Part shown: positions 39,804 to 41,695 of the stretch, one piece after another
How positions within the stretch are numbered: the first letter of the stretch is position 1
Layout: every line of letters begins with the position of its first letter
IMG/VR virus record: IMGVR_UViG_3300036832_000867
Location: 1 to 43,954 of that record
Strand: one strand, 5' to 3'
DNA from: a virus
DNA length: 43,954 nucleotides
Translations under genes and position numbers: made by a program
The notes under the pieces: model-generated
What the model was told of the DNA's origin: nothing
Database searches by the model: none
The model's input: the letters and a program-made list of their open reading frames with translations, nothing else

Positions 39804-40386
39804 GTCCACTATCAGCACCTTCCAGCTTTTCGCTCTCATCCCAGACGCCGAGTCCGCAAGGCTCTATCTTGAGGCTCGACTCTGGCCGGATGGCGTGACC
39901 TGCCCGTCCTGCATTCTTCGTGACCGCATCAGCACCCGCAAGGGAGGCTACTACCGCTGCAACCGCTGCAACCTAGACTTCACCGTCCGCACAGGCACCA
40001 TCTTTGAGCGTTCGCACGTCCCGCTGCACAAGTGGGTCTATGCGATGTATCTGGTTGTCACCTCCCGTAAGGGCATTAGCTCCATGCAGAGTTGGTTTGG
40101 TCTCTCGCTGAAGATTTGCAAACCACATATGAAGACTGGTTTTCTGATCACCCGGAGTTGGAGGATTAATGGCGTCAATGCTGTACAAAACGGATGGCCG
40201 TGCGAGCTATGTCGCGCCCGCTGGCGCAACGTGGTCGCTGGCAGAGTTGCAACGGCTGGTCGGTGGCGATATCGAGATTGTTCGCACGATCGACGATCGC
40301 TACATGGTTATCAACGAGCAAGGAAAGTTTCAGCGTCTTCCGCTCAACATCTATGCCACGCGGCTCTTTGTGCACGGTCGCCGTGA
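39796..40386 (+). pseudogene. Truncated IS1595-type (ISXO2-like) transposase
   Basis: From GTG 39796 the frame reads FQLFALIPDAESARLYLE, then a zinc-ribbon CPSC...YRCNRC with DFTVRTGTIFERSHVPLHKW and VVTSRKGISSMQ, the N-terminal region of IS1595/ISXO2 transposases. After SSMQ (about 40090) similarity ends; the DDE nuclease domain is absent. The frame stays open to 40386 but runs into the DUF3846-like gene in another frame, so the true remnant ends near 40090-40168. No inverted terminal repeats are seen. In the -1 frame a short end (SLAEDLQTTYEDWFSDHPEL) reaches a TAATG junction with the next gene and may be the rest of the disrupted native gene. Confidence 0.6.
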
Positions 40387-40506: not shown

Positions 40507-40538
40507 GGCTGAGGGGTGTCGCACCCTTCGGCCTTTTT
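40507..40538 (+). terminator. Strong rho-independent terminator
   Basis: GGCTGAGGGGTG-TCG-CACCCTTCGGCC forms a 12-bp stem with two wobble pairs, followed by TTTTT (40534-40538). It ends the unit 38652-40450. The following stretch to 40987 (about 450 bp) holds no confident gene but a possible origin and structured RNA, described separately. Confidence 0.85.
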
Positions 40539-40562
40539 GTTGCCCTGGTAGGTACCTCGTAA

Positions 40563-40621
40563 ACCGTTGGAAAAATTAATGTTTTAATCCACAAACTTTA
40601 AGGGGTACATTCACAAACGGT
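40563..40621. other. Candidate replication origin
   Basis: AT-rich segment framed by ACCGTT (40563-40568) and AACGGT (40616-40621). Inside are two DnaA-box-like sites: TAATCCACA (40585-40593, one mismatch to TTWTNCACA) and ACATTCACA (40607-40615, two mismatches), 22 bp apart on the same face, each followed by AAC. It is in the longest intergenic region, upstream of the winged-helix replication-type gene. Position and boxes support an origin; not proven. Confidence 0.45.
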
Positions 40622-40636
40622 GGAGCACGCGGCGCG

Positions 40637-40733
40637 GGCGACACTATTAGGCAAAGACTCCGGCTGATCCCCGGAGTTGGTGGGGGGAACCTGAGATTCC
40701 CCCGACCCGCCTTCTCTCAGGGGAGTGTGTGCC
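40637..40733 (+). ncRNA. Riboswitch-like pseudoknotted RNA
   Basis: By eye four helices nest consistently. P1: GGC and ACACT (40637-40645) with AGTGT and GCC (40724-40733). P2: ACTCCGG (40657-40663) with CCGGAGT (40671-40677). P3: GGGGGAA (40683-40689) with TTCCCCC (40697-40703), plus GGT/ACC at its base. Pseudoknot: the whole P3 loop CCTGAGA (40690-40696) with TCTCAGG (40715-40721). The Shine-Dalgarno GGGGAG (40720-40725) for an ORF at 40734 is held between the pseudoknot and P1. No known class is recognised. Confidence 0.6.
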
Positions 40734-40901
40734 ATGTTGCCTCGCTATCAAGTTCGACTGACAAGACAGGGTTTAGCCGCTGATCTGGCGCGAGTGTGCC
40801 GCCGATCGACGGCAGTTTTTTTTGCAGGAGACGTTAACCGACAGGTCCCAGGGGTGCAATCCGGCATAGTTCCGACAAATCCCCTGCGGCTTCTGACTTA
40901 A
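40734..40901 (+). CDS. Possible 55-aa ORF behind structured RNA
   Basis: ATG 40734 lies 8 nt after GGGGAG. The product starts MLPRYQVRLTRQGLAADLA, then a basic middle (RVCRRSTAVFFAGD). The LPRYQVRLTRQ start faintly recalls phage JAB/RadC-like proteins but that is weak. A terminator-like hairpin with T8 (40797-40823) lies inside the ORF (encoding VFF), so either the ORF is real and the hairpin incidental, or the region is non-coding and the RNA ends there. Confidence 0.35.
   Translation: MLPRYQVRLTRQGLAADLARVCRRSTAVFFAGDVNRQVPGVQSGIVPTNPLRLLT
40797..40823 (+). terminator. Intrinsic terminator with T8
   Basis: TGCCG and CGGCA (5-bp perfect stem, 8-nt loop) followed by G and TTTTTTTT (40816-40823). 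It would end a short RNA that carries the pseudoknot element. It overlaps the 55-aa ORF. Confidence 0.65.
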
Positions 40902-40936
40902 ACTGCAAAGCCGAGGGCGGAACCCCCCGGCTTTGC
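40849..40936 (+). promoter_or_regulatory. Second structured leader with alternative pairings
   Basis: CAGGGG (40849-40854) pairs with CCCCTG (40881-40886) around CGG/CCG (40862-40874). Then GCAAAGCCG (40905-40913) can pair either with CGGCTTTGC (40928-40936), a GC-rich hairpin, or through AAGCCG with CGGCTT (40887-40892). The two are mutually exclusive, as in an attenuator, upstream of the 41-kb replication-type gene; no U-tract follows. Confidence 0.4.
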
Positions 40937-40943
40937 CTACATC

Positions 40944-40987: not shown

Positions 40988-41695
40988 ATGCGTCAGGACG
41001 CACAAGTTATGAATAAGACTACAGAATGCGCCTATGAGTTGCAAGAATCTTTTCGTCAAACCTGTGCAAATACTGCACCTAGCGCACCCAAGAGACTCCC
41101 AAAAGTAACCTTTCTTGTTGATCCCGTCATCTGGCAAAAGATGAGCGCGGAGCACCGCGAGGCGTGGCGGGCTTTCATGCGCCAGTATCGCGCCTGGAGG
41201 GTCCGCGAGGTCTTCGATCCGAAGTATCGAACGATTGCGGGCTGGTTCGGAAAGAGTATTTCCGCCGCGCGGCGATACATTAAGGACTTTGCGCGGTGGG
41301 GGTTGTTGGTGATCGAGGAGCGCCGCCGCGCGTGGAATCGCAACGATACCAATGTGTATAAAGTTGTGGATTCTACTGTGGATCGTGGGGGGGGGTGCCC
41401 TTCAAAAATGAGCGGGGAAAAGCCTTTTAAAGACTCTTTAAAAACCAATACACCCGCTGATCGCGGGTCACAATCCACGACAAAGGCAAAAGAAACATCC
41501 CTCTTTGAGCGGCTACGGGAAAAGTTTCGGGCCGAACGGCGGGCCTTCGACCTGAAGGTATCCCTGCAAATGCGGGCGGAATACGAAGCGAAGGGCCGAA
41601 TCTTTGCGGAACGGCGGGAAAATCGGCAACTCGAGAGTAGCCGCATGGCGGTAGCTGCCCGCCTGGGCATGTATACCGGTCCCAAGAGTTCATAG
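40988..41695 (+). CDS. Winged-helix replication-type protein (235 aa)
   Basis: Residues about 45-130 hold a winged helix like phage replication/initiator or regulator proteins: helix AEHREAWRAFMRQY, then TIAGWFGKSISAARRYIKDFARWGLLVIEER (recognition helix and wing), ending YKVV. After a Ser/Lys linker, a long basic helix (about 170-225: SLFERLREKFRAERRAF) follows. A G9 run (41387-41395) encodes RGGG just after the wing and could slip. Next to the candidate origin this is the best replication initiator candidate. ATG 40988 or 41009 may be the start; AAAGG is 13 nt upstream of the first. Confidence 0.6.
   Translation: MRQDAQVMNKTTECAYELQESFRQTCANTAPSAPKRLPKVTFLVDPVIWQKMSAEHREAWRAFMRQYRAWRVREVFDPKYRTIAGWFGKSISAARRYIKDFARWGLLVIEERRRAWNRNDTNVYKVVDSTVDRGGGCPSKMSGEKPFKDSLKTNTPADRGSQSTTKAKETSLFERLREKFRAERRAFDLKVSLQMRAEYEAKGRIFAERRENRQLESSRMAVAARLGMYTGPKSS

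Follow-up and report, generated by a model that had tools for sequence, protein, structure and literature searches.

A putative kissing-loop leader RNA enclosing a Shine-Dalgarno sequence precedes replication-initiation genes in phages of soil bacteria

Genomic context of the element

We analysed IMG/VR record IMGVR_UViG_3300036832_000867, a phage sequence of 43,954 nt (hereafter, the window), which carries an RNA element of about 90 nt within positions 40637–40901. The features described here, from the candidate promoter to the initiator gene, are all on the plus strand. The DUF3846 gene upstream is followed by an intrinsic terminator-like hairpin (40511–40540), and the RNA may therefore begin its own transcription unit. 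A candidate promoter (40584–40611), formed by a -35-like TTAATC (40584–40589), a 16-nt spacer and a -10-like TACATT (40606–40611), matches the consensus weakly. The same TACATT occurs in the relative L058, other relatives have TATAGT at the corresponding place, several of them with an extended -10, and promoter-like sequence lies 5' of the element in most members. The window also contains an ORF (39805–40158) with an IS1595-type transposase zinc-ribbon domain (PF12760); the remainder of a transposase seems to be lacking.

The element ends at the start codon (ATG, 40734) of a first ORF of 55 aa (40734–40901), whose start and stop positions are kept in most of the group despite sequence divergence; its counterparts in relatives have 47–105 aa (about 50–60 aa in most, 105 aa in L057 and 81 aa in L083). 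Inside this ORF lies a terminator-like hairpin with a run of eight T (40797–40822), found only in the window and L058. In L065 (3440–3575) and relatives, a long conserved hairpin, AAGCGG...CCGCUU, lies within the small ORF, in its 3' half, where the peptide has the motif QSKSG or RSKSG. A second conserved hairpin with loop CGGAAC (40905–40937) stands between the first ORF, whose stop codon it immediately follows, and the initiator gene; it shows a compensatory change with respect to L058, from GCAAAGCCG/CGGCUUUGC to GUAAAGCCC/GGGCUUUAC, and related hairpins occur in other relatives, with loop variants including GGCCGAACACC. The gene that follows (40988–41695, 235 aa; its start may be 41011) encodes an O-like replication initiation protein (phrog_678, E 7.8e-6; phrog_270, E 9e-5).

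In the predicted fold, a short helix P1 joins GGCA (40650–40653) to UGCC (40730–40733), immediately 5' of the start codon. It encloses hairpin P2 (40656–40678; arms 40656–40663/40671–40678) with loop L2, CUGAUCC (40664–40670), hairpin P3 (40679–40707; arms 40679–40689/40697–40707) with loop CCUGAGA (40690–40696), and hairpin P4 (40711–40725), in which an anti-Shine-Dalgarno strand (anti-SD, 40711–40714) pairs with 40722–40725. The P4 loop, UCUCAGG (40715–40721), is perfectly complementary to all 7 nt of the P3 loop and continues into the Shine-Dalgarno (SD) sequence GGGGAG (40720–40725), which lies within the kissing strand and P4 and has an equivalent position in the relatives. Folding energy is modestly unusual (z -2.2 for 40637–40740; z -2.3 for 40620–40736), which alone is insufficient as proof of an element; the decision comes from homologues.

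Relatives of the element

A search with the terminase gave one relative, L002, on the same contig as L058. The L058 region keeps GGCAAA and GGCUGAUCCCC, and has a new P3 loop (CCACGAGA) together with a new, matching 3' strand (UCUCGUGG). Further relatives came from pattern scans and, independently of the RNA, from the neighbouring protein family: among 18 loci found by the neighbouring protein alone, 13 had the element and five lacked it. A first covariance model, covering P1–P3 and built from 15 sequences, recovered L055 from outside the training set (E about 4e-9), with complementary P3 loop and 3' strand (CUGACAC/GUGUCAG). A second model recovered the cultured phages Tunturi_1 and Tunturi_2 (E 6e-12), again with complementary strands (CUUGAAG/CUUCAAG). 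True members scored 41–88 bits, against up to about 17 bits in unrelated contigs. The element is thus present in 16 IMG/VR phage contigs (the window and 15 others) and in the two isolated phages, which are identical across it and were counted as one; these 17 distinct sequences are a small set that includes near copies (L051/L052/L053; L066/L082; Tunturi_1/2).

A weak match in Tunturi_5 (14.4 bits) lay inside a coding gene and was judged a chance hit, unrelated contigs reaching 16.6 bits; the seven matches of a pattern scan of species genomes were likewise attributed to chance. Comparison of the window sequence with named phages and plasmids (blastn) gave only chance matches, and single-sequence queries with the 55-aa ORF, the window initiator and the window DUF3846 protein found no homologues. 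Rfam 15 had no match at gathering score in the window, and permissive Rfam scans of the window region, six relatives and Tunturi_1/2 gave only chance-level matches on the element, in agreement with the initial statement that its class was not a recognised one. The permissive scan also produced a low-E, sub-threshold match to a microRNA model in L066 (4963–5062, minus strand), probably a simple inverted repeat.

Comparative support for the fold

The sequence-only reading that preceded this work had proposed P2 and P3 and suggested a covariation search over related phages. Both hairpins are present in the region it named, and comparison of the homologues found compensatory changes in both: P2 is paired in 100% of alignment cells, with five of its six pairs changing on both sides, and P3 in 91%, also with five pairs changing on both sides. 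Over P1–P3, 12 of 20 pairs show changes on both sides, although these counts lean towards structure because the alignment was fitted to the covariance models; none of 500 shuffles was as good, and slid controls fell far below the real pair-change counts.

The seven-base pairing of the entire P3 loop with 40715–40721 was also borne out. Across 16 sequences, the P3 loop and 3' strand of the same member form 5–8 contiguous pairs each, adding up to 104, whereas the best of 20,000 re-pairings among members reached 86. This test draws on the alignment fit only to locate the P3 loop. Its permutations ignore kinship, which would improve rather than worsen the fit of foreign strands. Shuffles within single sequences are weaker (p 0.001 to 0.16), so that support for kissing rests on the set as a whole. 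The two strands are fully variable among members yet change in concert, and complementarity is kept in L055 and Tunturi too, the members set aside from model building. Comparison among homologues shows the predicted architecture: a P2/P3 junction, a short closing P1, and a P3 loop pairing with a 3' strand beside the SD.

Some of the initial description required correction. The pairing first called a pseudoknot is real and is better described as loop-loop kissing, the 3' strand being the loop of P4. The SD before ATG 40734 does lie partly in this pairing, as had been noticed, and its remainder belongs to P4 and not to P1. SD/anti-SD pairing is possible in all 16 sequences (permutation p 0.017; 80% of cells paired), and P4 covariation is scant because SD sequences are constrained. 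A closing helix P1 exists, in a register different from the one proposed: the supported form is GGY with RCC just 5' of the start codon (40650–40653 with 40730–40733), as GGC:GCC in eight members including the window and as GGU:ACC in three members from different subgroups. It has only 3–5 bp, with no clear version in about five members, and a generic permutation test of it is hard to interpret since short segments pick unrelated matches. The longer outer helix 40641–40645/40724–40728 has a possible counterpart in L058 only. The first model had P1 pair with the segment that separates P3 from P4, an option that we came to regard as weaker than the register at the start codon. A refined fold is well supported by these comparisons, namely a predicted four-way junction in which P1 ends beside the start codon, the SD forms the 3' side of P4, and the loops of P3 and P4 kiss.

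The conserved unpaired core comprises AAAC in J1/2, L2 and J2/3. L2 occurs as CUGAUCC, UUGAUCC, CUGAUCA, UUCGCUA, AUCGCCA, GUUGCUC or CUAAUUA, and all 17 sequences fit the U-turn type consensus NUNRYYM. Its positions 4–5 are AU or GC in every case. Between the close relatives L067 (3294–3391) and L068 (3215–3309), L2 is swapped as a block (UUCGCUA vs CUGAUCC). A pairing of L2 with a downstream GGATC was unconserved and was discarded.

In all members the SD and start codon directly follow the fold, fixed relative to the kissing helix. Together with the covariation, the promoter-like sequence just upstream and the lack of an Rfam match, this fixed position upholds the original view of an unassigned, pseudoknotted RNA that would occlude an SD and is organised as a translational riboswitch or an autoregulatory leader would be. 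From the comparison of sequences, we regard a folded RNA before phage replication-initiation genes as confirmed, and the first interpretation as a whole as partly supported.

Operon organisation, distribution and host

In all cases, the element lies 5' of a replication-initiation operon. The order in the window's group is element, ORF of ~50–105 aa and O-like/HTH initiator. In L083, there is overlap between the 81-aa ORF and the beginning of an HTH-like gene, which by inspection looks like an initiator. In Tunturi_1 and Tunturi_2 the element follows the ssb gene; an HNH-type endonuclease comes directly after it in Tunturi_1. In Tunturi_2 (PP885685.1; L093) the gene directly after it is initiator-like and lacks annotation in the record; it is a 131-aa ORF (2439 to about 2047, minus strand) resembling replication initiation proteins (phrog_270, E 3e-7) and 69% identical to Tunturi_1 gp54, annotated as a replication initiation protein. 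Since the first ORF varies (small ORF, HNH nuclease, 81-aa ORF or initiator), an effect on the initiator is one that we infer from operon order.

Five phages of the window's terminase group (L060–L064) have at this place a plasmid-type RepA_C initiator (PF04796; profile-confirmed in two of the five, the other three being close relatives by inspection). It stands in for the small ORF and the O-like initiator, as in a module swap, and the element is absent. The members belong to three lineages of phages, namely the window's terminase group, L083 and Tunturi_1/2. No homologue of the window terminase was detectable in L083, and the only match of this terminase among named phages was Tunturi_3 (27%), which indicates that the element travels together with the initiator operon from one phage lineage to another. 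Tunturi_1 and 2 infect Tunturiibacter psychrotolerans, of the Acidobacteriota (PMC11924767). Phages of soil bacteria, among them two cultured ones with an acidobacterial host, share the conserved element; from this host and the Tunturi_3 terminase match, the host of the window phage may also belong to the Acidobacteriota.

Proposed function and alternatives

These features point to a cis-acting leader RNA controlling translation of the first gene in the phage replication-initiation operon, a reading to which we assign a probability of about 0.75. The folded state would be OFF, with the SD and start codon enclosed, kissing stabilising the SD hairpin P4 and ribosomes kept off. A signal on the conserved core would shift the balance and open the SD, so that the first ORF would be made and, via coupling or a relief of polarity, the initiator too; the OFF sense of the folded state is likewise one that we infer. 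An upstream hairpin able to capture the P1 5' strand (permutation p 0.015) is a candidate alternative state, this being suggestive only. In the window and L058, a lack of translation could lead to early termination at the terminator-like hairpin within the first ORF. Such an element would probably decide when the phage starts copying its genome.

What might act on this leader can be read in several ways. Its specific form may be a small-molecule riboswitch, with L2, J1/2 and J2/3 as aptamer and the kissing SD hairpin as expression platform. The element has the conserved structured 5' leader and putative expression platform that characterise riboswitches in general, its rule-bound or invariant unpaired positions (L2 and the AAAC of J1/2) lie amid freely varying helices, it is modular, occurring before different first ORFs, and it resembles the corrinoid kissing-loop switches. 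This identity is plausible, if on balance doubtful, since the target genes are for replication and not metabolism, the quite different L2 versions (such as CUGAUCC, UUCGCUA, AUCGCCA, GUUGCUC and CUAAUUA) are unusual for a ligand pocket, and Rfam offered no riboswitch match. Control by a protein, whether the initiator, another phage replication protein such as SSB, or a host protein that represses or releases translation, has a precedent in the autoregulation of T4 gene 32. The RNA accompanies O-like initiators and is missing where RepA_C replaces them, and in the Tunturi phages it follows ssb. We nevertheless find protein control rather unlikely, given that the diverged initiators are the only conserved protein common to all members and that, in an informal comparison, the distribution of L2 types shows no obvious match to how the neighbouring genes are related.

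The U-turn type of L2 calls to mind a plasmid-like copy control, as in ColIb-P9 repZ, in which an antisense or trans RNA would kiss L2 and set replication rate or superinfection immunity. U-turn loops are the typical RNA-recognition loops of antisense systems, including antisense-controlled rep leaders. The block change of L2 between L067 and L068 and the replication-initiator target would agree with such control, but minus-strand promoters had no consistent placement in a simple consensus scan of 16 loci and no conserved partner complementary to L2 was found nearby, and we consider it improbable. A similarly low probability falls to a fold driven by temperature or the ribosome without a specific ligand, that is, an RNA thermometer or simple strong-structure attenuation: the weak helices P1 and P4 could melt, but the strong conservation of letters in the loop and junctions, along with the tertiary kissing, exceeds what a thermometer needs. 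The sequence-only reading had also offered a free phage sRNA of 200–250 nt ended by the T8 terminator. That hairpin is a good one in the window, yet it recurs only in L058 (2 of 17 members), while an SD and start codon are kept right after the fold in every member, which makes an sRNA very improbable.

Returning to the translational leader, a broader proposal is that it represents a new class of RNA switch through which a host-cell signal (a metabolite, a protein or another phage's RNA) gates replication via the ribosome-binding site (RBS) of the initiator operon. We put this forward tentatively, as a serious possibility; if true, the differing U-turn loops of related phages would correspond to different signal or immunity types. 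To our knowledge, few structured RNAs control phage replication initiation. The open-licence literature yielded no structured RNA controlling replication initiation in Acidobacteriota phages and no description of this element. It is small, has good support from covariation and is shared across unrelated phages, and its presence in two cultured phages with a cultured host makes ligand searches, probing and mutant tests feasible at once.

Comparison with known systems

The placement of the SD in or beside a pseudoknot is shared with the translational riboswitches SAM-II and preQ1-II, from which the element differs by its four arms with loop-loop kissing and by the absence of an Rfam match. Like the T4 gene 32 leader, it is a pseudoknotted leader of a phage DNA-replication gene; the T4 leader is a simple pseudoknot nucleating gp32 binding upstream of the SD, and no relation between the two was found. 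In ColIb-P9, a pseudoknot controlled by antisense RNA activates repZ and acts between the leader ORF and repZ. Our element, in contrast, precedes the leader ORF and overlaps its SD, with no antisense RNA evident. What it has in common with the ColIb-P9 (IncI-alpha) repZ leader pseudoknot (J Biol Chem 1998;273:11815 and EMBO J 1998;17:5201, both cited in PMC10724649) is the pairing of a loop with a downstream strand, the presence of a leader ORF and a target gene for replication initiation. The manA and wcaG motifs of cyanophages are also candidate cis-regulatory RNAs carried by phages (PMC2864571), although they precede metabolic genes and not replication genes, and the element had no Rfam match to them.

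The closest architecture is that of the corrinoid (cobalamin) riboswitch RF00174 and its relatives, where the loop of a receptor hairpin forms a kissing pair with that of an expression-platform hairpin; in the corrinoid riboswitch, the L5–L13 kissing loop promotes an RBS hairpin (PMC10653944). The element likewise has a kissing loop apparently coupled to an RBS hairpin. It is, however, much smaller, its kissing strands are fully variable, it would control replication genes, and Rfam scans gave no cobalamin-family match or conserved B12-binding core, even at permissive E-values. This places it outside the cobalamin family, although it appears to work like a kissing-loop translational switch. 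In M. tuberculosis, uORFs linked to B12 riboswitches modulate the downstream gene (PMC11260477), and these riboswitch-uORF pairs provide a precedent for control of a leader ORF that affects the next gene.
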